Shown here piece after piece: positions 1,049-56,980 of a stretch of 64,000 bases of DNA. A program made the position numbers and the translations under genes. The notes beneath the pieces are model-generated. The model saw nothing but the letters and a program-made list of their open reading frames with translations, was not told where the DNA came from and searched no databases. The stretch lies in IMG/VR virus record IMGVR_UViG_3300002144_000477, positions 106,894-170,893 of that record; one strand, 5' to 3'. Numbering within the stretch: position 1 is the first letter of the stretch; each line of letters starts with the position of its first letter. The stretch is from a virus.

Positions 1049-1746
1049 CACGTAGACGAATTCTTACAGTAGGTGATAGTTTTACATTCGGGGAAGAACT
1101 CCCTGACAGAGAACAGCATGCATTCCCTTATCTATTACGAGATTACCTCGGAGTCAACGAAGTAATAAATTTAGGGTTAAGCGGTGCAAGTTCTGACTAT
1201 GTGTTCCGCACCACAATCGAAACATTAATCTCGGATCCTGATCCATTTGATTTAGTGCTAGTCTGCTGGCCAGAACAGAGTCGGTTTGAAGCAATACACA
1301 ACCATCCATCGTTTGTTCCAACTGAAAGTGCGCCTCATATTAAACCAATGGCGTGTTTGATACGCAAGCCAGGTAAAGCAACCCCCGGTTACGAACCAAA
1401 ATGGGTGCAAGAGTATTACAAATACAGTTACGATACAGCATGGGGCTACCGTAAACAATTTAATCAAATGATTGCATTGCAAGCATTTTTAAAACAGCGT
1501 AAACAACCGTATGCTATGTATAATGTAGCAGGACTACAGGGCGAGTACGGTAGATACAAAGTTTTTTTACAACATCAGTTTGCCGGGATAGATAGCAACA
1601 ACTTTATAGGATGGCCACTGGATGGATTATTAGAATGGCAAGGGGACTGCGTTAAAGCGCCAGGCGGACACCCTTTAGAATTAGGGCATCAACGAATAGC
1701 AAAGGTTATCTATGAACATATTAGGAATAGCGGCTGGTTTTCATGA
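1045..1746 (+). CDS. SGNH/GDSL-type hydrolase-like protein
   Basis: A 233-residue protein with VGDSFTFG near the start (GDSF at 10-13), a block II-like NLGLSGASSDY around residue 50, and GGHPLELGH (about 207-215), a plausible block V carrying the catalytic His. Together these give a better SGNH signature than the copy at 172. No signal peptide or membrane segment. Its end overlaps the carbamoyltransferase by 35 bases, implying co-translation, so both may edit the same glycan or nucleotide-sugar. Confidence 0.7.
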   Translation: MTRRRILTVGDSFTFGEELPDREQHAFPYLLRDYLGVNEVINLGLSGASSDYVFRTTIETLISDPDPFDLVLVCWPEQSRFEAIHNHPSFVPTESAPHIKPMACLIRKPGKATPGYEPKWVQEYYKYSYDTAWGYRKQFNQMIALQAFLKQRKQPYAMYNVAGLQGEYGRYKVFLQHQFAGIDSNNFIGWPLDGLLEWQGDCVKAPGGHPLELGHQRIAKVIYEHIRNSGWFS

Positions 1747-3211
1747 CGCCGCAGTCACGTTAATTAACGATCAGGGCGATATCCTGTTTGCAAGCTCAAG
1801 CGAAAGATACAGCGGAATAAAAAACGATCCTAAGTTAGCAAGAGATATGCTAGCTGAAATTGATCTCTCGGAAGTACACAACGTTGCGTATTACGAAAAC
1901 CCGCTGCAAAAGCAATTACGACAATTGTACGCAGGTCAATGTGTAGAGTTAAACAAACTAACTACTCGGCAGGTCCTTCGCTCAGTTGGATATCCTGCTA
2001 AAACCGGTTTGTTTGGCACTAGGTGTAACGTAAAGTCGTATCCTCATCATATGAGCCATGCTGCTGCCGGGTTTCAAACTAGCCCGTACGATGACGCTAC
2101 GGTGTTAGTAGTGGATGCAATCGGTGAATGGAATACCGCAACTATATGGGATGCCCGGTACGATAGCGAGGGCAAAGCAGTATACAAAAAGTTATGGAGC
2201 CAATCGTATCCGCATAGTATCGGATTATTCTACAGTGCATTTACTAAGCACATCAATCTTAAACCTCTAGACGAAGAATACATTTTCATGGGCATGGCAG
2301 CGTGGGGAGAAAATCGCTGGTTTGATCGTATCTATACTGACTTCATTGAGAATTCGAGCGAATTAACATTTAAGAAAAATTTACATATTGGTATAGATCC
2401 AAATTACTTACCCGACGCTCTTAATGTTGATATTGCCGCTAGTGTGCAAAGCATCACGGAACATCTATTAGATCGATTAGTAAATAAAGCAAAGCACATG
2501 AATACAAGTAAGAATCTTGTATTCATGGGGGGAGTCGCATTAAATTGTGTTGCCAATGCAAACATCGGAGCGCATTACGAGAATATTTGGATTATGCCAA
2601 ATCCGGGCGATGCCGGTAGTAGCTTAGGTGCCGCCGCACTGATGTACGGAAAAAAACTGAACTGGGATGGGCCATTTCTTGGTTATAATATTCCGGGCGA
2701 GTACCCAGTTAACCAAATGGTTGATCAGCTATTAGCAAATCAAATCGTTGGAGTTGCTACTGGTCGCGCAGAGTTTGGGCCTAGAGCGTTAGGACACCGC
2801 AGTCTGCTTGCTGATCCACGCGGCTCAGAAATTAAAGATAGAGTAAACGAAATTAAACGTCGACAAAAGTTTAGACCATTTGCTCCAATGATTTTAGAAG
2901 AAATGGCAGACCAATATTTTAACATGCCGAAAAATTGGAAAGCCAGCCCATATATGCAAACTGTTGCAGTAGTTAAAGACCCATCACAGTTTCCAGCTAT
3001 ATGCCATATCGACAATACTGCACGAGTACAAACAGTAGGCCGTGAACCTCAGTTTGCTGGAGTAAGAGAACTACTCGAAAAATGGTTCGTGTTAACTGGA
3101 TGCCCGATGCTGCTAAATACTTCGCTTAATATCAGGGGAGAGCCCATGGTTAATACTCGCTCGGATGCTGATAGATTCGAGGATCAATACGGTATAACAG
3201 TAATATCATGA
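1712..3211 (+). CDS. NodU/TobZ-family carbamoyltransferase
   Basis: A 499-residue protein of the O-carbamoyltransferase family, which moves a carbamoyl group from carbamoyl phosphate to a hydroxyl through a carbamoyl-adenylate. Seen here: the N-terminal MNILGIAAGFHDAA ASKHA-fold start, the histidine cluster HHMSH at 112-116, the VVDAIGE phosphate loop, a second MGGVALNCVANANI block, and the C-terminal EFGPRALGHRSLLADPR signature of the YrdC-like domain. Slightly shorter than NodU/TobZ. Family members modify sugars, antibiotics and, in some phages, modified DNA bases. The SGNH and sugar genes nearby favour a sugar, but the acceptor cannot be read from sequence. Confidence 0.9.
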   Translation: MNILGIAAGFHDAAVTLINDQGDILFASSSERYSGIKNDPKLARDMLAEIDLSEVHNVAYYENPLQKQLRQLYAGQCVELNKLTTRQVLRSVGYPAKTGLFGTRCNVKSYPHHMSHAAAGFQTSPYDDATVLVVDAIGEWNTATIWDARYDSEGKAVYKKLWSQSYPHSIGLFYSAFTKHINLKPLDEEYIFMGMAAWGENRWFDRIYTDFIENSSELTFKKNLHIGIDPNYLPDALNVDIAASVQSITEHLLDRLVNKAKHMNTSKNLVFMGGVALNCVANANIGAHYENIWIMPNPGDAGSSLGAAALMYGKKLNWDGPFLGYNIPGEYPVNQMVDQLLANQIVGVATGRAEFGPRALGHRSLLADPRGSEIKDRVNEIKRRQKFRPFAPMILEEMADQYFNMPKNWKASPYMQTVAVVKDPSQFPAICHIDNTARVQTVGREPQFAGVRELLEKWFVLTGCPMLLNTSLNIRGEPMVNTRSDADRFEDQYGITVIS

Positions 3212-5455: not shown

Positions 5456-8072
5456 GTTTGATGTTTTCTACTTTGGGCCTAAGCCAAATTTATTTGCGTT
5501 TGAACGCCCTGCAAGTTCTCTTCAGGAAGCATTGCACAAGTCAAGGACTCGTTACTGTTGGTATTTATACGGCGGCAACGACTATACTGACTTTAATTTT
5601 AATATTGTGCCCGAACCATGGATGTCGCAGTTTGTACATACATGGCCTAGTCAGTGGCAAGCCGACGGTGGGGTGTACTTAGCAAGCAAGCATATTGTAG
5701 GTACACAGTATCATTTTCGTGCTGACCAAACAGTAGTTCGGATGAGTGATCCGACTAAGTGGGAAAACACTAGCAATGTCACTGACTTTGATTATAGTTG
5801 GCATCCAAGCGTACACGAACCAGATTACGAATATCATTTCCCTACACAGCACCAAAGCGCAGGCGGCCCAATCTATCCGGGTACAGCAGGCATTAAGTTG
5901 TGCAGTGACCAACGAGCAACAGTAGGTAGCACCACCAAAAATTGGCACATACCAACTGGCATGACAGTTGATACTAGTTGGCACCCTAATCCGTTGGATC
6001 CAAGTTACACTTATCACTTTCCCACTAAGTGGCAGAGTGCCGGCGGAGTAATGTACATTTCGACGCACTCTAGTACAACTGCTATTAAGTTTGCAGATTT
6101 TGTAACTAGCGAAGAGCCTAGCAACGAGAATTGGACGGTACCAGACGACATTGACGAGTCCACCATTGACTTTACCTGGCGCCCAAATGTATTAGACCCT
6201 TCTTACATTTACCATTTCCCCATTGGTGATATACAAAGTTCTGGATTAGTCTATACAGCACCTGGCGCAACAGAAGTTAAACTGATGGATTACTTCCCTG
6301 GGCATGATATAGGCACGTTTAAAGAAGTTGATGTGTTTTACGTAGACAAAAGCAACACTTTATCACAAGCAAGGTACAAAAAACTACTAAAAACTTACCC
6401 TAAAATGCAACGAATTCGGTATGCTAACAGTATGCTGGAAACTATACGTCGATGCGTTAATAGGTCTAGTACTACGCGATTCTGGGTTATCAGCAGTGAA
6501 AATGTCTACGATGACTTTCAGTTTGATTGGCGCCCCGAGAGCTGGCAAAGTTATATGACTCATGTGTTTGGGTCGCAATGGAATAAGTGGTCCGATACTT
6601 TCTTAATTAATAAATGGGAATTTGAACGTTCAAGTAAGTGGGCAACCGGTTTAGAACATTTTCCTAATCTAAACTTTGTAACGGATCAGCAGGTGCTAGT
6701 GCCCGACGACCTACATGCAATAGTTTATGTAGATTGGGGGTATGATGACAACAATCAGTTTGCTAGCTTACAAACTGCTCACCCTAATATACAAAAGACA
6801 AGATTTGTTGACAACTATCTAGATACATTCAAGCGGATTATTAATAACCATCAAGGTCACGACTACATCTGGGTTATTAGCAGCCTCTGTGACTACAGTA
6901 AATTTGACTTTAGTTGGCAACCCGAGCCGTGGCAGGCCGAGATGATACATGTGTTTCCTAGTAGCACACAGCGCCGAGGTGACACCTTTTACATCCACGT
7001 GCCAAGTTTTGCAAAACAAATGCACGATCTAGAAATACTAGATTGGTTTAATGTTATTAACTATTGTAACGAACAACAGGTGTCCCGTTGGCCTGTTAAC
7101 ATTGTAACATACAATGGAGACAGTGCAGTTGATGTTGTTAACACTTTAGAGTTTAGTACCGGGCCATACGAATTAGTAATGCACCATACTACTCCGGAGC
7201 GGAATGCTATCAACTGGGCAACAACTCCTTGCTTATGGAGATCGAAAGATCGCATGGCAATAAGTTTGTCTACCAACAATGCAACAGTGCTAGTTCCACG
7301 AGATATAAAGTTACAGCAACCTATTAAACAGATTTATGATTACCCATTTGTTAGTAAAACGGAATCGAGAACAGTAGTAGCACCCCCATTGGATATTGTA
7401 TATATTAGTAACGGCGAACCCGATGCTGAACGCTGGTATGAACATCTAAAGTATCAAGTGCCTAACTACAGTAACAAATTACATCGTGTAAAAAACATCA
7501 ATGGCAGAATGGAAGCATACAAAGCGGCTGCAGAAGCAAGTACAACTGAATGGTTCTTTGCTGTATTTGCAAAACTTCAAGTAAGCGACACATTCGACTT
7601 TACATGGCAGCCTGACTACTTCCAGGAAGCAAAGCATTACATATTTCATGCACGTAACCCAGTTAACGGATTAGAGTATGGGCATCAAGCAATGATTGCA
7701 TATAACAAAAGATTAGTACTTGAAACAATGAACAGCGGGCTGGACTTTACACTAACTAAAGCGCACGAAGTAGTTCCTATACTAAGTGGTACAGCACACT
7801 TTAATCAAGACGAATGGACTACTTGGCGTACTGCATTCCGTGAAGTGCTTAAGCTAAAACAGTTCCACGACACTAAGCCCAGCATAGAGAACGAAAGTCG
7901 TCTTAATGTATGGCTTACAAAAGGAGCAGATGTAGAAAATGGAAAGTGGAGCATCCTTGGTGCAAAGGATGCTCTTGACTATTATGCTAGCGTTAACGGA
8001 AATCCAGAAATGCTACAGTTGAGCTTTGAATGGGAATGGTTAAGAAATAAGTTCAATGAACTGGCTAGCTAA
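5454..8072 (+). CDS. 872-residue repeat protein with W-P/FP modules
   Basis: A large protein built from repeats. Seven modules follow a pattern of F-D-F/Y-x-W-x-P, then a YHFP- or VFP-like step about 12 residues on, then a Q/S-x-G-G-x-x-Y strand. Four longer units, starting DVFYFG, DVFYVD, AIVYVD and DIVYIS, each precede an FDFxWxP module and end in a phrase such as RFWVISSENVYDDF, suggesting a duplicated alpha/beta domain with an acidic strand end, perhaps glycosyltransferase-like. No signal peptide. It may be a multidomain glycan enzyme or a virion/adhesin component; the sequence does not decide. It starts on the same CATG as the divergent glycosyltransferase. Confidence 0.7.
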   Translation: MFDVFYFGPKPNLFAFERPASSLQEALHKSRTRYCWYLYGGNDYTDFNFNIVPEPWMSQFVHTWPSQWQADGGVYLASKHIVGTQYHFRADQTVVRMSDPTKWENTSNVTDFDYSWHPSVHEPDYEYHFPTQHQSAGGPIYPGTAGIKLCSDQRATVGSTTKNWHIPTGMTVDTSWHPNPLDPSYTYHFPTKWQSAGGVMYISTHSSTTAIKFADFVTSEEPSNENWTVPDDIDESTIDFTWRPNVLDPSYIYHFPIGDIQSSGLVYTAPGATEVKLMDYFPGHDIGTFKEVDVFYVDKSNTLSQARYKKLLKTYPKMQRIRYANSMLETIRRCVNRSSTTRFWVISSENVYDDFQFDWRPESWQSYMTHVFGSQWNKWSDTFLINKWEFERSSKWATGLEHFPNLNFVTDQQVLVPDDLHAIVYVDWGYDDNNQFASLQTAHPNIQKTRFVDNYLDTFKRIINNHQGHDYIWVISSLCDYSKFDFSWQPEPWQAEMIHVFPSSTQRRGDTFYIHVPSFAKQMHDLEILDWFNVINYCNEQQVSRWPVNIVTYNGDSAVDVVNTLEFSTGPYELVMHHTTPERNAINWATTPCLWRSKDRMAISLSTNNATVLVPRDIKLQQPIKQIYDYPFVSKTESRTVVAPPLDIVYISNGEPDAERWYEHLKYQVPNYSNKLHRVKNINGRMEAYKAAAEASTTEWFFAVFAKLQVSDTFDFTWQPDYFQEAKHYIFHARNPVNGLEYGHQAMIAYNKRLVLETMNSGLDFTLTKAHEVVPILSGTAHFNQDEWTTWRTAFREVLKLKQFHDTKPSIENESRLNVWLTKGADVENGKWSILGAKDALDYYASVNGNPEMLQLSFEWEWLRNKFNELAS

Positions 8073-19209: not shown

Positions 19210-19245
19210 TTCGTGCAGATTTATAAATCATCAGGAGATAAACAA

Positions 19246-20214
19246 ATGGAAAAACGTACTTTACGTTGGGTTTTAGCCCATGAGCCAATCGAAATTTTTA
19301 TTCGTGCGGCAACCCGCTTTGCTAAAATTGTTACCGAAGCCACAGATGGCCAAGTTGATATCGAAATTCTTTCTACAGAAGAATACGCACAAAAATATCA
19401 CGGTGTAGCCCGTGCCGATACACAATATCGCTACGAACTAATTAAGCACCTCGAAGCAGGCGAGTTAGAAATGAGCCAAATGTATACAACTACATTAGGC
19501 ACTATGTTTGACAAAGACCTACTAGCACTAGATATGCCATTCTTGTTTAAGGATCACGATCACGTAGCTCGTGTACTAGATGGCGAAATTGGTACAGGTC
19601 TACGTGACGGCTTCGCAGCTAAGACAAATGCACAACCATTGGCATTTACATACAGCGGCGGATTCCGCGTACTACCATCTAGCAAAGAAGTTGCAACACT
19701 TGCAGATTTAGCTGGTGAAAAAGTTCGCACAGGTAGCGAAGTTTCTAAGGAAACATTCAAAGCCATCGGTTGTGAAGTAGTTGACGGTATTTTAATTGAA
19801 GAAGTTGGTGCCGCACTTGGCGACGGTCGCATCGTTGCTGGCGAAAGCACATACCCACGCTTATACGGCGGCGAGCAGTTTGTTAGCCCAAGTAAAACAG
19901 CTAAGGTTGTTGTAAACTCAGAGCACAGCTTGTTCCTAACAACTATCCTTATCAACAAGGATGTATGGGCTAGCTTTAGCGCAGAGCTACAGGAGATCAT
20001 GCTCCACGCCGCTAAAGAAGCAGCCATTGAAGAGCGCAAAGAAGCACTATTGGATATTGAGAAAAACCGTATCCGTTTAGCGCAAGACGGCGTTGAAGTG
20101 GTATATTTGTCCGATGCTGACATGGCTGAGTTCCGTGCCCGTACTGCACCAGTATACGAAACACTTGATTCAATGTTTAGCGAAGGCCTAGTAGGCAAGA
20201 TCAAGTCTGCTTAA
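19246..20214 (+). CDS. TRAP-type (DctP-like) solute-binding protein without signal peptide
   Basis: A 322-residue DctP/TAXI-type periplasmic-binding fold: an N-terminal strand-helix start, YSGGFRVLPSSKEVATL followed by DLAGEKVRTGSEVSKETFKAIG (the conserved ligand-carboxylate arginine region), and late helical segments. Normally exported with a QM membrane complex; here the mature part starts directly at MEKRTLRWVLAHEP, with AGGAG before ATG 19246, no leader peptide and no transporter genes nearby. It has its own late box, leader hairpin and terminator, suggesting high late expression. A cytoplasmic binder or virion component is plausible. Confidence 0.85.
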   Translation: MEKRTLRWVLAHEPIEIFIRAATRFAKIVTEATDGQVDIEILSTEEYAQKYHGVARADTQYRYELIKHLEAGELEMSQMYTTTLGTMFDKDLLALDMPFLFKDHDHVARVLDGEIGTGLRDGFAAKTNAQPLAFTYSGGFRVLPSSKEVATLADLAGEKVRTGSEVSKETFKAIGCEVVDGILIEEVGAALGDGRIVAGESTYPRLYGGEQFVSPSKTAKVVVNSEHSLFLTTILINKDVWASFSAELQEIMLHAAKEAAIEERKEALLDIEKNRIRLAQDGVEVVYLSDADMAEFRARTAPVYETLDSMFSEGLVGKIKSA

Positions 20215-31435: not shown

Positions 31436-31486
31436 TTAGAAGTTAAGTTTGTATCCTACTGTTGCACGTACATTAAGTTCATCCAT
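31436..31486 (-). pseudogene. Remnant of an outer-membrane beta-barrel C-terminus
   Basis: A 16-codon frame (MDELNVRATVGYKLNF, then stop) with AGGAAG before its ATG. The alternating pattern and terminal Phe are the beta-signal of outer-membrane barrels, and the ending resembles that of the 33525 protein. It overlaps the end of the radical SAM gene. The rest of a barrel gene is absent upstream, so this looks like a leftover of a replaced gene, though a chance frame is not excluded. Confidence 0.4.
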
Positions 31487-32714
31487 TACATTCTTCCTTT
31501 AATTTTTGCGAGACATCACTCCACAACTCGTTAAATGTTGTTGTCTTTTTTAATTCTTGTTCAATTCGATTATTAAAACTTAAAATTCTCATTGCTCGTT
31601 GTTTATTTGAAACTTTTTCAACATTCACAACATCGTTAGAAATTGGTATGCCAGTATAGCACATTTCTTTATATTTTGCTAAAGTGTCGAGAGATAAATT
31701 TTTATAATTTTCGTATTTTGTTAAAACTTTATCTATTTCTTTTGCAGCCATTAATCGTATACTTTCAGGTGCGAATCTAATGTCTAATTCATAAGGATTA
31801 ATTAAATCACACCAAAATATATCTAAATTTTTGGATAGGCAAAAATCATAAAAATCTAATAGATCAAATGCACTATATAAACAGTACGCCGGATGAGCAA
31901 TAATGTGTTGATTATGTTGTTTTAGAATATCGATGTTGTTAACAAAGGTTTTCCATTCAGCTTTATGTCTGACGTATTCAAATCGTTTTTCTAAACAATC
32001 AAAACTTATCATCCAATGTACATTGATATTTTTATTAGAAATAATAGATTTGAACATCGGGTTATTTGTCAAATCAACACTTAAATTAGTTGTTATATGA
32101 ACATTTACATATTTAGATAAATTGTTAAACAATTTATATATCGATTTCTGTAATAGAGGTTCACCGCCACCTACGGTAATACTAGATAAATGTTCTTGAT
32201 TATCTAATAGATAATTTACGGCGTTCTCTTCATCTACTTTTCCAAGTTCAATGATTTTACCTTTGACTTTTTGCCATTCTGTACTACAATCTGGACCACA
32301 ATAAAGACAAGTCAGATTACACAAATTATTCCAATTAATGCTACAACTGGTTAATACATTTTGATCGTTATTGTCTATTAGGGCACGAACGTCGGCATCT
32401 AAACTATTAACGTGCATCAATCGTTCACTACGTCCACCGTATGTTTCTGAGTCTTTACAATAACTACAATGATCGTGCCATTCTTCGTTTTTAATACTAG
32501 TTTTGATTTCGGATAATAGTTTATTTTGTAAAATTTTATCCACTGGATCTTGCAAATTATTGCCTACATTTTCGCTATAAGAACAGATCCCAGTTCCTCC
32601 ATTTACTCCTAATCTCAGAGAAGTCCACGGACAGGGGCAAAATGTTTTACTTTGACTGGTTTCTATGATGATTTGTATGATGATTTGTATCCTGTTTGCC
32701 ACTGCATAATACAT
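31479..32714 (-). CDS. Radical SAM/Twitch-SPASM-like protein
   Basis: A protein of about 410 residues. The cluster motif CNLTCLYC (C-x3-C-x2-C) sits about 150 residues in, after an N-terminal cysteine-rich part (KTFCPCPW, HCSYCKD) like Twitch/SPASM modules, and the GGEPLL motif follows. Such proteins modify peptides or small molecules using a 5'-deoxyadenosyl radical. The start is uncertain: the ATG at 32714 lies in the -10 box of the promoter, so translation probably begins downstream, perhaps from a non-ATG codon. Its neighbours do not reveal a substrate. Confidence 0.75.
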   Translation of the reverse strand: MYYAVANRIQIIIQIIIETSQSKTFCPCPWTSLRLGVNGGTGICSYSENVGNNLQDPVDKILQNKLLSEIKTSIKNEEWHDHCSYCKDSETYGGRSERLMHVNSLDADVRALIDNNDQNVLTSCSINWNNLCNLTCLYCGPDCSTEWQKVKGKIIELGKVDEENAVNYLLDNQEHLSSITVGGGEPLLQKSIYKLFNNLSKYVNVHITTNLSVDLTNNPMFKSIISNKNINVHWMISFDCLEKRFEYVRHKAEWKTFVNNIDILKQHNQHIIAHPAYCLYSAFDLLDFYDFCLSKNLDIFWCDLINPYELDIRFAPESIRLMAAKEIDKVLTKYENYKNLSLDTLAKYKEMCYTGIPISNDVVNVEKVSNKQRAMRILSFNNRIEQELKKTTTFNELWSDVSQKLKEECNG

Positions 32715-32741
32715 TATACGACAAAAGAGATCAAATGTCAA
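32713..32741 (-). promoter_or_regulatory. Sigma70-like promoter for the radical SAM gene
   Basis: TTGACA at 32736-32741 and TATAAT at 32713-32718 (minus strand), 17-base spacer. A consensus match, overlapping the apparent 5' end of the reading frame. Confidence 0.9.
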
Positions 32742-49370: not shown

Positions 49371-49399
49371 ATTGTACTATAAGTGTGACGTAATGTCAA
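49371..49399 (-). promoter_or_regulatory. Sigma70-like promoter for the dsbA-polymerase operon
   Basis: TTGACA at 49394-49399 and TACAAT at 49371-49376 (minus strand), 17-base spacer; overlaps the end of PP-loop gene A. Confidence 0.8.
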
Positions 49400-50577
49400 C
49401 CCTTATAATTTTCCAAATAGTAGGTAACAGCTTCAGTTACATTTGGTTCCCACGGAAAGTGTCCAACATTGTTATTGTCAAAGTAAAATGGACTAATTTC
49501 AACGGTACGACGGTCTCGGTCAGTTGCAGTACTTGCTATTTTAACTTTGTGGTTATAATAACGTGCATTGTTATCGAACTTATACAAATACTCACGTGCC
49601 TGCCATTTTGTACCAGTTACACCTTGATCAATCTTAGCATAGAATGTTTGTAAATTGCTATAACTCCAGAACTGGAATCGCTCACTATGGAAGAATACCT
49701 CACTCATGAATCGATCGTAACGATCCTGTGTAATACCTTTCTTGTAGTCTGCAACAGCGTGTTGCAACGGACGTTGCATAGAAAACTGGTACTTTAAATT
49801 AAAGTAATGCCACCACCAGTAATCAGCAATGGAGTATGCATTTTCTAAATTTGCTTCTGCGAAGTTATCAGCTACTTTGTCAACATACCATTTGCTAAAG
49901 TCTGGGTGGCTCCACGGATTAGTTTGCTTATCGTAGAATACTTTAATAAGATCACGATTCTCGTTAGCAGGCAACATATGTCTTCCATCGGGAATTAGGT
50001 GTGCAAATGCTCCGATGCTAGGTCCGTATATGCAATCGCCGGGATCACCGTGTAATAGCATAACTTTATCCAAGAACTCGTTGGTAACATCAATATCATT
50101 GATATGTACAATTTTTAACTTGCCACTAATGTGCCGCTGATAGAAGTCCATATTTTCTAATAGACTATCAGTGTTCAACACTACAGTTAATATCTTTCTA
50201 TCTGCTTCGCTTAAATTCTTAATAAAGCTAACTAGCACGCCGGAACTGTCGATACCACCAGACCACATGATATAAATTTCGCGATTAGTTTCGCTAGCAA
50301 TTTTAAATAACTCTAGCGCACGTTCGTCTAATATATCGTCGAGTGAGTCTGGTATATAACGTAGACTGGGCATACCCCATATAGCATTATCGTTCGGACT
50401 GTCCCACGGGGTAGTAAAAGTTCCAGAACGAGGCCTTACATCTTTAACTCCAATGTTTAATTTACTGTACCTCTGCCAGTGTTGTCCCACTGGGTTCTTA
50501 ATGTCAAGGTATTCGATTAACTGGTTATCGACCATGTTACCGTGTTTTATTTGATTAATGTGTTTTTCAATTGACAT
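49396..50577 (-). CDS. PP-loop ATPase (Asn-synthetase-like), copy A
   Basis: A 393-residue PP-loop protein. IYIMWSGGIDSSGVLVSFIKN carries the SGGxDS ATP-pyrophosphatase motif (106-111), and LHGDPGDCIYGPSI a second conserved block. It resembles the synthetase half of asparagine synthetase B-type enzymes, without the glutaminase half. Such enzymes adenylate a carboxylate and join it to an amine. It pairs with the 227-residue protein directly upstream, and the pair is duplicated (51247 and 52421). Substrate unknown; not a recognisable QueC. Confidence 0.8.
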   Translation of the reverse strand: MSIEKHINQIKHGNMVDNQLIEYLDIKNPVGQHWQRYSKLNIGVKDVRPRSGTFTTPWDSPNDNAIWGMPSLRYIPDSLDDILDERALELFKIASETNREIYIMWSGGIDSSGVLVSFIKNLSEADRKILTVVLNTDSLLENMDFYQRHISGKLKIVHINDIDVTNEFLDKVMLLHGDPGDCIYGPSIGAFAHLIPDGRHMLPANENRDLIKVFYDKQTNPWSHPDFSKWYVDKVADNFAEANLENAYSIADYWWWHYFNLKYQFSMQRPLQHAVADYKKGITQDRYDRFMSEVFFHSERFQFWSYSNLQTFYAKIDQGVTGTKWQAREYLYKFDNNARYYNHKVKIASTATDRDRRTVEISPFYFDNNNVGHFPWEPNVTEAVTYYLENYKG

Positions 50578-51250
50578 TTAGCCACTCCGAAATCTTAGGA
50601 TGTATATACCGTTGCAAATGACATTTAATTGGAATCTTATTAAACTCAACTCCAATTTGCTGTCTAATATCATCAACACTTTGTTCAATGTCAATATTGT
50701 TGTATAGCATTTGAAAAACTTCGCCTTTGTATGAACGCAAATATTTCATTATACTAAACTTATAATCGGTTTCCCATTTAATAAGATCTAGTAATGCCTG
50801 ATCGTCGGGCATTACTAATTTAGAAAACTCAGCTAATTGTTCAAGATGCATTTTTTGATTGCGACTCTTTGTACGCATAGTATCTTGGAAATATCCATAC
50901 TCTTTATTAAACACTTTGATAAACTGATGAAAACAACTAACAACATCAACTAAATGCGTGTGGTATGAATCAATTGGGTCAGTGTTTGGTATAAGGCGAA
51001 TGTACGGTTCGCTTTTTGGGTGAATATCGACCGCTATGTTGATTCGGTTTGAATCAGCTAATCCGATGTTTATTAATCGACCGCGATCAAGAATACCTTC
51101 GCGATAATTTTCAATGTCGCTTACTCGCACACAGTACAACAGTATCTTGTGTGTTAATACGAACTGAATGCTTTTAAGCATTTCGTAACTTCTATCCGCG
51201 ATTACAAATCTGTTTGATCGCGGATTATATAATGCATATAATTCTTTCAA
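50567..51250 (-). CDS. PP-loop partner protein, copy A
   Basis: A 227-residue protein of no known family, always next to a PP-loop gene here. It shares with the 52421 protein an N-terminal pattern: NxRxNxFVxxDxSYxMxKSxQFxLT, a strand-turn-helix layout, followed by helical C-terminal parts. It may supply substrate binding or an accessory role. It shares 11 bases with PP-loop A and an ATGA with PP-loop B, so all four are one transcript. Confidence 0.65.
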   Translation of the reverse strand: MKELYALYNPRSNRFVIADRSYEMLKSIQFVLTHKILLYCVRVSDIENYREGILDRGRLINIGLADSNRINIAVDIHPKSEPYIRLIPNTDPIDSYHTHLVDVVSCFHQFIKVFNKEYGYFQDTMRTKSRNQKMHLEQLAEFSKLVMPDDQALLDLIKWETDYKFSIMKYLRSYKGEVFQMLYNNIDIEQSVDDIRQQIGVEFNKIPIKCHLQRYIHPKISEWLNVN

Positions 51251-52452
51251 TTGAAATCCTCTAATAACTGTACAACACTTTCGCGTACACCTGGGTCAGA
51301 CAAATTGCGTCCTTGCCAACTATCAGTAAAGTATACGGGTTGTACTCGAGACTGTCTGTCTAATACATTAGCCGGAGCACCGGGCGTTTTTACTTTAGTT
51401 TCGAAGTAAAGATCATTGCGATCTAACTCAAATATATAGCTACGTGCATCATGTTTGTGCATCTTTCGTACATCCCACCCTGTGCCTGCTGGCAATAGAG
51501 TTTGCAAATTACTGTAGCTCCACTGTTGCCAATTTGGTGAATTAAAGTAGGTATTAGTTGCATAATCTACTAGTTCTTCTTTAGTGAACGATGTATTAAA
51601 GTCTGACCTACTAAAGAAAAAAGGTCGCTGGCAACTAAACTCCCACTTAAAGTTGTAGTAAGTCCACCACCACCAATCAGCTACAGTAATTACATTTTCA
51701 GGATTAATCTCTTCTAAATTAGCACTTACTGCGTTAACAAACCATTTGCCAAACCCTTCAGAATAATGAGGATGACTTGGGTGCGGCTGGACTGAATCAA
51801 TGATTCCGCTAATATGATTACGCCAAGGATCCTTATGTGTTCCTTGTTGTATAAATTTAGCATACGCCGGTATACTAGGGCCTTGTAAACAATCGCCTGG
51901 GTCGCCGTGTATCACAATATATTTTTTAAGCAACTCAGGTGTAAGATCAAAATTTGAATAATGTAAACAATCAAGTTTGTTACTGATATGGTTAACGTAA
52001 AAATGACTATTTTCTAATATGCTTCTAGAGCTTAATGTTATAGTTAAAATGTCTCTGTCAGCAGGTTCTAGATTTTTAATAAAGCTACTTAAGACCGCAG
52101 TGCTGTCAATTCCGCCGGACCATAAAATAAGTATCCGTCGATTAGTAGCCTTGGCAATACTAAACAGTTCGATTGCACGTTGGTCTGCAACATCGCTAAA
52201 CGATAAATTAGTAAAGGTAAAAGCAGGCGGCAAGTATTCAGACTTGCAACTAGCCCCCCAGGGGTTTTTAAATTCACCCAGTCTACTGCGCCAATCACTT
52301 ACACCGATTAACAATCGATTCATTTGAGTCCAATGGTTTGCATTAGGATTCTTGTAAGCAGTTAAGTTAGTAAAGTAGTCTGCCGCTACAAGTCTGGAAC
52401 TTTGTAACTCAGTTGCAGTTTTATTGTGCAGGTAGTCTTCTAAGCCATTCAT
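51247..52452 (-). CDS. PP-loop ATPase (Asn-synthetase-like), copy B
   Basis: A 401-residue paralogue of the 49396 protein. It has ILILWSGGIDSTAVLSSFIKN (motif at 112-117) and the same HGDPGDCLQGPSIPA block; most aligned segments match in order, including the ADWWWWTYYNFKWEFSCQRP-like stretch (IADYWWWHYFNLKY in copy A). Same cassette layout as copy A. Divergence between copies suggests two substrates. It overlaps the upstream partner gene by 32 bases. Confidence 0.8.
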   Translation of the reverse strand: MNGLEDYLHNKTATELQSSRLVAADYFTNLTAYKNPNANHWTQMNRLLIGVSDWRSRLGEFKNPWGASCKSEYLPPAFTFTNLSFSDVADQRAIELFSIAKATNRRILILWSGGIDSTAVLSSFIKNLEPADRDILTITLSSRSILENSHFYVNHISNKLDCLHYSNFDLTPELLKKYIVIHGDPGDCLQGPSIPAYAKFIQQGTHKDPWRNHISGIIDSVQPHPSHPHYSEGFGKWFVNAVSANLEEINPENVITVADWWWWTYYNFKWEFSCQRPFFFSRSDFNTSFTKEELVDYATNTYFNSPNWQQWSYSNLQTLLPAGTGWDVRKMHKHDARSYIFELDRNDLYFETKVKTPGAPANVLDRQSRVQPVYFTDSWQGRNLSDPGVRESVVQLLEDFN

Positions 52453-53164
52453 TGGTAAGGTTCTCCGATAGCGCCGCTATCATAATTGATTTTAAATATG
52501 CAGTTGCACCTGGACCGCCAAAGAGTGCATGGATTGTGTTAATTTCGTTCTTTAATAATGCTACTAACTTACTACGTCCGATTGATTTAATATCAGTTGT
52601 GCTAAAGAATGTATACAAACTCTTTTTAATTAACGCAGTTGAATCTTGAGTATTATGTAACTCATTACGCTCAGTCCTAACGGCCTCATCAACAAATGCA
52701 TCAGGCCCTGTTAATACTTTAATATAGTTTTCAAATTCTGTAATGCCATTTAACCTCTGTTTTATTGCATTCTTTTTATTTTGTTCTGCAATTGCTAGTA
52801 ATCTATTAAATCGGCTAAAAAAGTCGTACATTGTTTGGATATTTACAATTAGGTCCGGGCTAGCACTAAAGTCAGCTGGGCCCAGACCGTAATCAGGACG
52901 CAGTGAGTATGCATAGTCGTGCTTAATGGTAATTGGGCTAGCATCAAAATCTAAAAATTTATGTAGACGAAAGCTGCCTGCAAAATCTAATTTATTTTCT
53001 GTATTGATTTCAATGTCGGATTTTTTATCAATCAGACTAAAGTCTACACACAAAGTAGTTAACTGAACGGTTAGACAAAATTGCACAGTCTTCATTGCAC
53101 TATAGTCGTCGCCTACTAGCACAAATGTATTGTGGCGTTGCGATAACAAACCAAATTTTGGCAT
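52421..53164 (-). CDS. PP-loop partner protein, copy B
   Basis: A 247-residue protein related to the 50567 protein: RHNTFVLVGDDYSAMKTVQFCLT near the start, matching NRFVIADRSYEMLKSIQFVLT in copy A. The rest is helical. No recognised family. GGAGGT precedes its ATG, and a consensus promoter sits at 53255. First of the four-gene cassette, so it should be transcribed together with both PP-loop genes. Confidence 0.65.
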   Translation of the reverse strand: MPKFGLLSQRHNTFVLVGDDYSAMKTVQFCLTVQLTTLCVDFSLIDKKSDIEINTENKLDFAGSFRLHKFLDFDASPITIKHDYAYSLRPDYGLGPADFSASPDLIVNIQTMYDFFSRFNRLLAIAEQNKKNAIKQRLNGITEFENYIKVLTGPDAFVDEAVRTERNELHNTQDSTALIKKSLYTFFSTTDIKSIGRSKLVALLKNEINTIHALFGGPGATAYLKSIMIAALSENLTNEWLRRLPAQ

Positions 53165-53313
53165 TAAAACCTACCTCCAAATTGAAGCAATGTATATCCC
53201 GGCGGCTTGTCTTGGTCACCTGGTGGAAGAATGCCGGAAAACATTACTCCATATATTATAACAATTATTAATATAATTGTCAAGACTAATTTGCACGTAT
53301 CTTGGGGCTTCAT
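53164..53313 (-). CDS. Possible small membrane protein, 49 residues
   Basis: A 49-codon frame ending on the TAATG overlap with partner B. The hydrophobic segment (LTIILIIVIIYGVMF) would span a membrane once and is followed by a Pro/Gly-rich end (LPPGDQDKPPGY). However, the hydrophobic codons coincide with an exact TTGACA-17-TATAAT promoter, so the frame could be promoter and leader rather than a gene. Confidence 0.45.
   Translation of the reverse strand: MKPQDTCKLVLTIILIIVIIYGVMFSGILPPGDQDKPPGYTLLQFGGRF
53255..53283 (-). promoter_or_regulatory. Sigma70 consensus promoter for the PP-loop cassette
   Basis: TTGACA at 53278-53283 and TATAAT at 53255-53260 (minus strand), 17-base spacer, an exact consensus. 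It lies inside the 49-residue frame. Confidence 0.8.
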
Positions 53314-55301: not shown

Positions 55302-55589
55302 TTAAAAAAATACACGAAAGTTAGTTTTTAAGTCTCGCTTGCGCTCATCGCGAACATCAATTTTTTCTACTTTGAATTCGCCAATGCCTTTTACTTTTTC
55401 AATTTTAATATCGTAAGTCTGACGTTCGTCAAACTCTACTGTTAAGTTTTCACGAAGGTACTTTTCTTGGGTATTCCAACGAAACACTCGCTCAGTGAAC
55501 AACGTATTATTAACCCAAACCCGATAAACCGGAGCTGAATCATTGGGCTTAATGCATAGTAAATCAAATTCTACTGTTACTGTACTCAT
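55302..55589 (-). CDS. Hypothetical beta-rich protein, 95 residues
   Basis: A beta-sandwich-like small protein (STVTVEFDLLCIKPND, FDERQTYDIKIEKVKGI, EKIDVRDERKRD). No family recognised. It shares an ATGA with the 464-residue gene upstream, so they are translated together. A virion surface or assembly role is possible given its late-gene neighbours, but not shown. Confidence 0.6.
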   Translation of the reverse strand: MSTVTVEFDLLCIKPNDSAPVYRVWVNNTLFTERVFRWNTQEKYLRENLTVEFDERQTYDIKIEKVKGIGEFKVEKIDVRDERKRDLKTNFRVFF

Positions 55590-56980
55590 AGTGCGATTCC
55601 TCTGCTGCCGACTCCGCCTTTTTTGCGTTTTGCTTTTAGGTCTTGGTAGGCTTGATCTAGTGCTGTTAACATAGCAGGTAATGCAGATTTTGTCAACAAG
55701 TATTTTGCCTGCTGTGCTTGCTCCGGATCCATTGATGCAATACGTTCTGCTAAGTCTTTAAATTTTTCTGTTAAGTTACGATGTAACGATGCAATAGTGT
55801 AGACTCCGACTCCTGGCACATGCACTTCACTTTGTGTCATTGGGTCATTTTTATTGATATTATACAAACTTTCTGCAATGCCTAAGTTGTATGCTTTAAT
55901 TACACCATTGGTCTTTGCTTCAGGTGGGCGACCGTCTTTGGTAACACGGTTACCAAACTTTTTAGCTTGTTTAATAAGTTCAGTTGGTCCTACATCTGCG
56001 GTAGTATTAACTCCGGGTACTATACGGCCAACTCCTTCGCTTACTCGAGGAGGTTGGTTGCCCAATCGTTGTTTAGAAAAATCTAAATGTGGTGCTGTTG
56101 GACTAGATTGCTTACGCTTACCTTGCCAAGTACTGTTTTGACTACTAGAATCTGTGCGTAGTTGGTTATCAATTTCTTGGCCAATCTCTGCTTTAATTCC
56201 GTCTTTGCTAATTCGACTTATACTGTCGGCACTGCGCATTAATGTAATTAATGCACTTAAATCATTTGCTTGCGCGGGCCCAGCGGCAGTACTTAATGCA
56301 AGAGCCGCTGATGCTAGTTTGCCCTTCCACCCCTCAGTTACTGACTCGGTTACGGGCCCAGATGCTAATTTGTTGTCCATGGTTGCTTTAACTTCGTTAT
56401 TGTATCCGCCGAACAGATCTTTAATGATGGCTTTTCGCTTTTCGTCGTCGGCTTGTGCATAATCTGCACGTACTTGGGTAGCACTACGCATTGGAGCACC
56501 CAGTACTGTGAAATCTAGTGTAGGCACAGTAGTGATGTATCCGTGCGTATCCATGGAATCAGCATCGGCAACAGATGCTGGTAGAGGTTGTAAGTAGCCG
56601 GCAGATCCGTCTTTTTTCGGCTTAAAACTAAACCGAGGATCTTCGTCCATATCTTTATTACTAACAGCAAAAATTAACACAGTAGATGCTGGATTAAAGT
56701 GTTGTGTTAGCTCAGGTACTGCATAAGGGTTTTTAGTTTCGATGACACGGTCAGCAGGGATACCAGCGAGTTGCATCATTTGCAGTTTTTCGCTGAAGGT
56801 AAATGGACTTTTTGGTAATTCGACTTTGTTACTAGTAGCAATCCATACGTTGTCTCTGCCGTACTGACTCACTAACGCATTGTACATGCTAGCATGCCCT
56901 TTGTGAAAGGGGTGGAACCTGCCGGGTAAAATTGCTACTACCCGGCGTTGCTCCTCTTCGAATAAATCTGCAACAAACAT
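55586..56980 (-). CDS. NadR/CoaD-like nucleotidyltransferase fused to unknown C-terminal part
   Basis: A 464-residue protein. The N-terminus is a nucleotidyltransferase: VAILPGRFHPFHKGHASM with HxGH at 26-29, and GAPMRSATQVRADY like an ISSTxVR motif. After about residue 200 an Ala/Ser-rich stretch (WKGKLASAALALSTAAGPAQA), a low-complexity linker and a helical domain follow, with no known match. The fusion is unusual. In bacteria the catalytic part makes NAD or CoA precursors. Here it may add a nucleotide to a virion or glycan component. CATAAATA box at 57006. Confidence 0.75.
   Translation of the reverse strand: MFVADLFEEEQRRVVAILPGRFHPFHKGHASMYNALVSQYGRDNVWIATSNKVELPKSPFTFSEKLQMMQLAGIPADRVIETKNPYAVPELTQHFNPASTVLIFAVSNKDMDEDPRFSFKPKKDGSAGYLQPLPASVADADSMDTHGYITTVPTLDFTVLGAPMRSATQVRADYAQADDEKRKAIIKDLFGGYNNEVKATMDNKLASGPVTESVTEGWKGKLASAALALSTAAGPAQANDLSALITLMRSADSISRISKDGIKAEIGQEIDNQLRTDSSSQNSTWQGKRKQSSPTAPHLDFSKQRLGNQPPRVSEGVGRIVPGVNTTADVGPTELIKQAKKFGNRVTKDGRPPEAKTNGVIKAYNLGIAESLYNINKNDPMTQSEVHVPGVGVYTIASLHRNLTEKFKDLAERIASMDPEQAQQAKYLLTKSALPAMLTALDQAYQDLKAKRKKGGVGSRGIAL

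Follow-up and report, generated by a model that had tools for sequence, protein, structure and literature searches.

A tandemly duplicated gene pair of aquatic phages joins a probable AsnB-like synthetase to a dedicated partner protein

In the window (the whole 64,000-nucleotide stretch of viral DNA analysed here, from a virus record of 170,893 bases), two genes that encode PP-loop proteins, PP1 and PP2, are each preceded by a gene that encodes a partner protein, PA1 and PA2. This arrangement raises the questions of whether the pairing is general, what reaction it might serve and why it is kept in duplicate. The four genes follow the order PA2–PP2–PA1–PP1 on the minus strand, with successive overlaps of 32, 4 and 11 nucleotides in the list of open reading frames (Table 1), and the two PP genes are the only close copies in the whole record. 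The first-pass annotation had described the locus as a tandem duplication of an entire gene pair, with all four overlapping genes read from one consensus promoter, and both descriptions hold. PP1 and PP2 are 40% identical across 374 amino acids and share SGGIDS, HGDPGDC and a WWW block. The cassette promoter, which has an extended −10 element, is one of seven perfect (12/12) matches in the window, all of them on the minus strand; a relative, L002, has an 11/12 match upstream of its first partner gene. The candidate hairpin upstream and the separate promoter-like site of the next operon make the cassette look like a discrete four-gene unit. That next operon comprises an 84-aa gene, a 76-aa gene and a DNA polymerase gene; the polymerase, of family B, and a gene order common to related contigs presumably point to a T4-like aquatic phage. 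A T4-type late promoter was considered for the cassette operon and dropped, as the sole TATAAATA in the window is at 5562.

Table 1 Features of the cassette and of its immediate flanks (aa, amino acids)
Feature	Position in the window	Strand	Details
Terminator-like hairpin, AAAAATAGACCC-ACCC-GGGTCTATTTTTT, putative end of the preceding operon	~53398–53370	minus	identified by eye; not reported by a pattern scan
Sigma-70-type promoter, TTGACA-17-TATAAT, TG before −10	53283–53255	minus	12/12 consensus match
PA2, partner protein	52421–53164	minus	247 aa; open reading frame, partner family profile, tree group B
PP2, probable stand-alone AsnB-like PP-loop synthetase	51247–52452	minus	401 aa; paralogue group B
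PA1, partner protein	50567–51250	minus	227 aa, TTG start; paralogue group A
PP1, probable stand-alone AsnB-like PP-loop synthetase	49396–50577	minus	393 aa; paralogue group A
Promoter-like site of the following operon	49399–49371	minus	11/12 consensus match

The two partners have only a faint pairwise likeness (20/57 identical residues, single-pair E 4e-7). With PA1 or PA2 as the only seed, iterative profile searches reached exactly the same 69 open reading frames, so that the partners, which the first-pass annotation had called related, are so at the profile level.

The pairing holds up and extends beyond what a single window could show. Searches of viral contigs found close relatives and, when an alignment was used as the query, 351 confirmed stretches, from which 77 loci were kept, and a scan of genome contigs added 24 loci, part of them phage-like and part apparently bacterial. 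Across phage and bacterial contigs, the partner gene lies directly upstream in 99 of 134 distinct PP homologues and within two genes in 116; 17 have no partner within this distance and 1 more sits at a contig edge. In searches that started from the partner, each recovered contig had PP as the next gene downstream. None of the 99 partner genes in the collected loci lacks a nearby PP, a count biased by a set gathered mostly via PP. The expectation of a dedicated partner was borne out: the pair recurs in numerous aquatic phages and in some bacteria, and PP genes are not commonly partnerless (18/134).

Relatives carry one, two or three PA–PP pairs. In the closest contigs and in a group with one copy each (for example, L016, L017, L019 and L063–L065), the DNA polymerase gene is two or three genes away from the cassette; the remaining related loci are at other sites, with orders such as PA–PP–PP–PA or with PP but no PA. 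More distant loci have, directly upstream of PP, a gene of a second, wide partner family (190–260 aa), and this lineage also includes tandem copies of the pair (L140, L141, L142, L144 and L145). A protein search of INPHARED found no relative of the PP or PA proteins of the window, whose form thus occurs in no isolated phage there; distant PP members match a single isolated phage, Pseudomonas phage Cygsa01. A plasmid search with a distant member returned no match. In Cygsa01 (L130, 7661–9810), two PP relatives that adjoin tail genes are annotated as the tRNA thiouridylase MnmA, a label that looks doubtful for the PP family.

The PP tree contains three groups: A, with PP1 of the window; B, with PP2; and C, a third pair that the window does not have. 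Each spans two phage sub-lineages (support 100/97, 98/95 and 97/80, respectively), and the tree program warned that the join of group C unites long branches. Groups B (94/87) and C (93/89) reappear in the partner tree, in which the partners of group A do not resolve as a group. Because each group holds both sub-lineages, the A and B copies are old paralogous pairs that have been kept since before these phages diverged, and the group C copy is probably also older than the divergence. The earlier proposal of a duplication retained with divergence therefore stands, with the changes that the event is old rather than recent and that several relatives have three pairs. PP1 and its orthologue in L002 are 87% identical, with a pS of 0.77 and a pN of 0.08; synonymous change is near saturation and non-synonymous change is low. 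The partners change faster than the PP proteins.

PP2 has SGGIDST at residues 112–118, HGDPGDCLQG at 182–191, K333, Y349, K353 and K355; PP1 has SGGIDSS at 106–112 and also HGDPGDC. Among the 134 distinct PP proteins, the S, G, G, D and S of SGGxDS are invariant, and the second motif has the consensus (S/T/H)G[DE]x[GAN]D[QC]LFG, with an acid at position 184 in 132 proteins and D187 in 122. Towards the C terminus K333 (132/134), K353 (131/134) and Y349 (126/134) are kept, and further kept positions are E147, G183-[DE]184-x-x-D187, W262-W263, K269, Q309, W311 and K355. By eye, and against the established pattern of the AsnB family, the second motif resembles SGEGADELFG of asparagine synthetase. 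The motif and the C-terminal lysines are conserved among the PP proteins, and the profile alignment with AsnB-type enzymes spans the PP-loop only. The AlphaFold model of PP2 is confident (pLDDT 92.7) and, together with the 134 sequences, places the protein in the PP-loop superfamily through a strand (106–110), the SGGxDS loop and a helix (115–126). Residues 1–100 of the model form helices and coil without strands, which together with the lack of a conserved cysteine speaks against an N-terminal class II glutaminase domain with a catalytic Cys and agrees with the earlier statement that PP has no glutaminase domain.

The best PDB matches to the PP model in Foldseek are human and Escherichia coli asparagine synthetase and the hydroxyamidotransferase TsnB9, and the list also includes beta-lactam and carbapenam synthetases. 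These motifs and folds agree with the likeness to asparagine synthetase seen at first pass, a likeness to its synthetase domain. PP is probably an AsnB-like member of the superfamily; the assignment is probable rather than proven because the sequence likeness is limited to the PP-loop stretch in profile alignments and the TM-scores are low (~0.3). Similar to the C-terminal domain of asparagine synthetase B (PF00733), its best fold match in the PDB, PP has SGGxDS, together with a second motif and C-terminal lysines that look alike by eye; unlike that enzyme, it lacks an N-terminal glutaminase domain, falls below the Pfam cut-off and has the WWW block and a near-obligate partner gene. Pfam has no match for PP1 or PP2 and no model for PP or PA; a single distant PP member matches Asn_synthase (PF00733) at 14.5 bits, below the cut-off of 21. 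NCBIfam and PADLOC likewise have no model for either protein, PHROGs give no convincing match to either and a literature search found no description of the pair.

Structure prediction and Foldseek, proposed at first pass for the partner, yielded a confident model of PA1 (pLDDT 94.5) and no PDB relative (best match, E 0.7). In this model an N-terminal beta-beta-alpha-beta unit leads into a long helical hairpin. Its best viral structural matches, in BFVD, are uncharacterised phage proteins of 197–209 aa, which, to judge from size and topology alone, may be the wide partner family. When the profiles of PA and of that family were compared directly, the match was weak (probability ~10%, N-terminal part only); the two partner groups are likely, rather than proven, to be homologous. 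No invariant set of polar residues that might serve catalysis was found in the PA family, in which L7, K26 and Q29 are the best-kept positions, and PA is likelier to be a docking or regulatory subunit than a supplier of nitrogen.

Recurrence in phages and bacteria, together with absence from the protein-family databases searched, makes PA–PP look like an unrecognised two-part enzyme, and we lean towards each pair being a two-subunit ATP-dependent carboxyl-amine ligase. PP would bind ATP through the SGGxDS loop, with D116 and D187 as two metal-binding acids, and adenylate a carboxylate; K333 and K353, both treated as invariant in this scheme, would help to transfer the acyl group onto an amine. 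The reaction would resemble those of asparagine synthetase and beta-lactam synthetase, with PP itself hydrolysing no glutamine. PA would be a non-catalytic, co-translated partner that probably docks the substrate or completes the active site, and the simplest reason to keep both A and B may be that their substrates differ. We infer the reaction, the roles of individual residues and of PA, and the class of substrate (a metabolite of a phage pathway or a peptide). The modified base, amino acid or peptide put forward as a substrate at first pass is likewise conjecture.

Beta-lactam synthetase, carbapenam synthetase and TsnB9, which share the fold class of PP, form amides without free ammonia and provide a model for it. 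They are larger than PP (~500–576 residues), and the first two carry a degenerate glutaminase-like domain; we know of no PA-type partner for any of the three. Lasso peptide cyclases are AsnB-like enzymes that work with a small separate RRE protein, an arrangement similar to PP–PA; the differences from the lasso system are that none of the Foldseek hits listed for PA is PqqD-like and that no precursor peptide was found. More tentatively, with the balance slightly against it, the pairs may constitute a widespread, unnamed ligase family of aquatic phages and bacteria, in which an AsnB-like synthetase works only with its dedicated non-catalytic partner and repeated tandem copying diversifies substrates within natural-product-like or protein-modifying pathways of phages.

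If PA–PP is such a ligase, a small metabolite of an auxiliary phage pathway (for example, with organic acids or amines being modified) is a possible substrate, short of a probable one. Recurrent neighbours of distant pairs include cupin (24 loci), GNAT, fatty-acid desaturase, DctP- and TctC-like binding proteins, a Rieske-like oxygenase and a sodium:solute symporter, with the Rieske, TctC and tail-fibre labels used here given by eye from the sequence and not by profile. A carbamoyltransferase and an amidase lie beside pairs in Bdellovibrionales, and the genome of the window encodes two DctP-like proteins and a carbamoyltransferase. However, relatives of the cupin, GNAT, desaturase, Rieske and TctC genes were not found in the genome record of the window. 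Variable islands with radical SAM cassettes have been described in pelagimyophages, and a comparison of the freshwater relatives of these phages dealt with genes for substrate transport and for desaturases (PMC7029224). Proximity is weak evidence because such islands of large aquatic phages carry numerous unrelated genes (PMC7029224).

A phage or host protein is the more doubtful substrate for the proposed ligase. PA might, just as doubtfully, deliver a virion protein or peptide, such as a tail-fibre or baseplate component, on which PP forms an amide-type bond. AsnB-like enzymes of peptide natural products offer an analogy, and distant pairs adjoin tail-fibre-like genes and a radical SAM gene (L060, L103, L109 and L128), as PP adjoins a PAAR-like gene in L014 and L018; the PP relatives beside tail genes in Cygsa01, the sole isolated phage that has them, point in the same direction. 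One partner of the wide family resembles phrog_8983 (E 1e-6) and, weakly, a small tail-fibre-assembly-like protein (E 1e-3), but the partner profiles give no match to the latter. In three bacterial contigs (L040, L045 and L056) genes for YcaO and SagB-like nitroreductase lie close to pairs, and the genome of the window has at least six radical SAM paralogues, which is also consistent with peptide modification; the cassette in the window, by contrast, adjoins a DNA polymerase gene rather than tail genes, and no precursor peptide came to light.

Modification of nucleic acid by PP, whether through thiolation of tRNA, through lysidine- or queuosine-type chemistry or through DndC-like phosphorothioation, is very unlikely. 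PP has weak PHROG, NCBIfam and PADLOC matches to QueC-like, TtuA, LarE and DndC models, but all cover the shared PP-loop only and fall below curated cut-offs. No column of the 134 PP sequences exceeds 40% cysteine, which disfavours cysteine-dependent sulfur transfer, leaves no conserved CxxC site and sets PP apart from PP-loop enzymes with catalytic or zinc cysteines, such as thiolation enzymes, QueC and PAPS reductase; the PP-loop is all that PP has in common with QueC, MnmA/TtuA, LarE and DndC. Assignments of PP as a thiolation enzyme or as QueC were dropped, as was that of an anti-phage defence gene; the only PADLOC defence match is the weak DndC one at the PP-loop (E 0.002).

The proposal at first pass of glutamine-dependent, asparagine-synthetase-like amidation with ammonia from PA is barely credible: the near-constant company of the two genes and the missing glutaminase domain of PP would suit it, but no set of Cys, Ser, His or Asp residues is conserved in PA, which also lacks a glutaminase-like fold and a PDB relative, and PA as a glutaminase was dropped.

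The near inseparability of the pair across phages and bacteria, its persistence in T4-like aquatic phages as one to three old copies next to replication genes and the lack of a convincing Pfam, NCBIfam, PHROGs or PADLOC model suggest a function that is important to these phages. If PP–PA is a two-part ligase, it would be a small, assayable enzyme system, and may help to explain the many PP-loop, radical SAM and solute-binding genes in such phages.

Further genes in the same genome record were noted. Two DctP-type solute-binding proteins are encoded, one in the window at 19213–20214 (plus strand; PF03480, E 7e-38; no obvious signal peptide by eye) and one at L132 16517–17470 (minus strand). The six radical SAM-type paralogues, four of which are in tandem, occur at 31479–32741 in the window (minus strand), L137 647–5825 (plus strand) and L134 17430–18722 (minus strand). 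The carbamoyltransferase (PF02543 and PF16861) is at 1712–3211 (plus strand) of the window, and a 464-aa protein with a cytidyltransferase-like N terminus (phrog_395) is at 55586–56980 (minus strand). A PP-loop-like protein of another family (f58) is encoded at the start of the record (L132 1–1272, plus strand). Other recurrent neighbours of distant pairs are radical SAM proteins and further PP-loop proteins, and in some bacterial contigs carbamoyltransferase, amidase, symporter, YcaO and nitroreductase genes lie near the pairs. In the Bdellovibrionales contig L047 (2762–12989), genes for a carbamoyltransferase, a cupin, three PP-loop proteins, a partner, an amidase and a symporter form a cluster that resembles a biosynthetic gene cluster.
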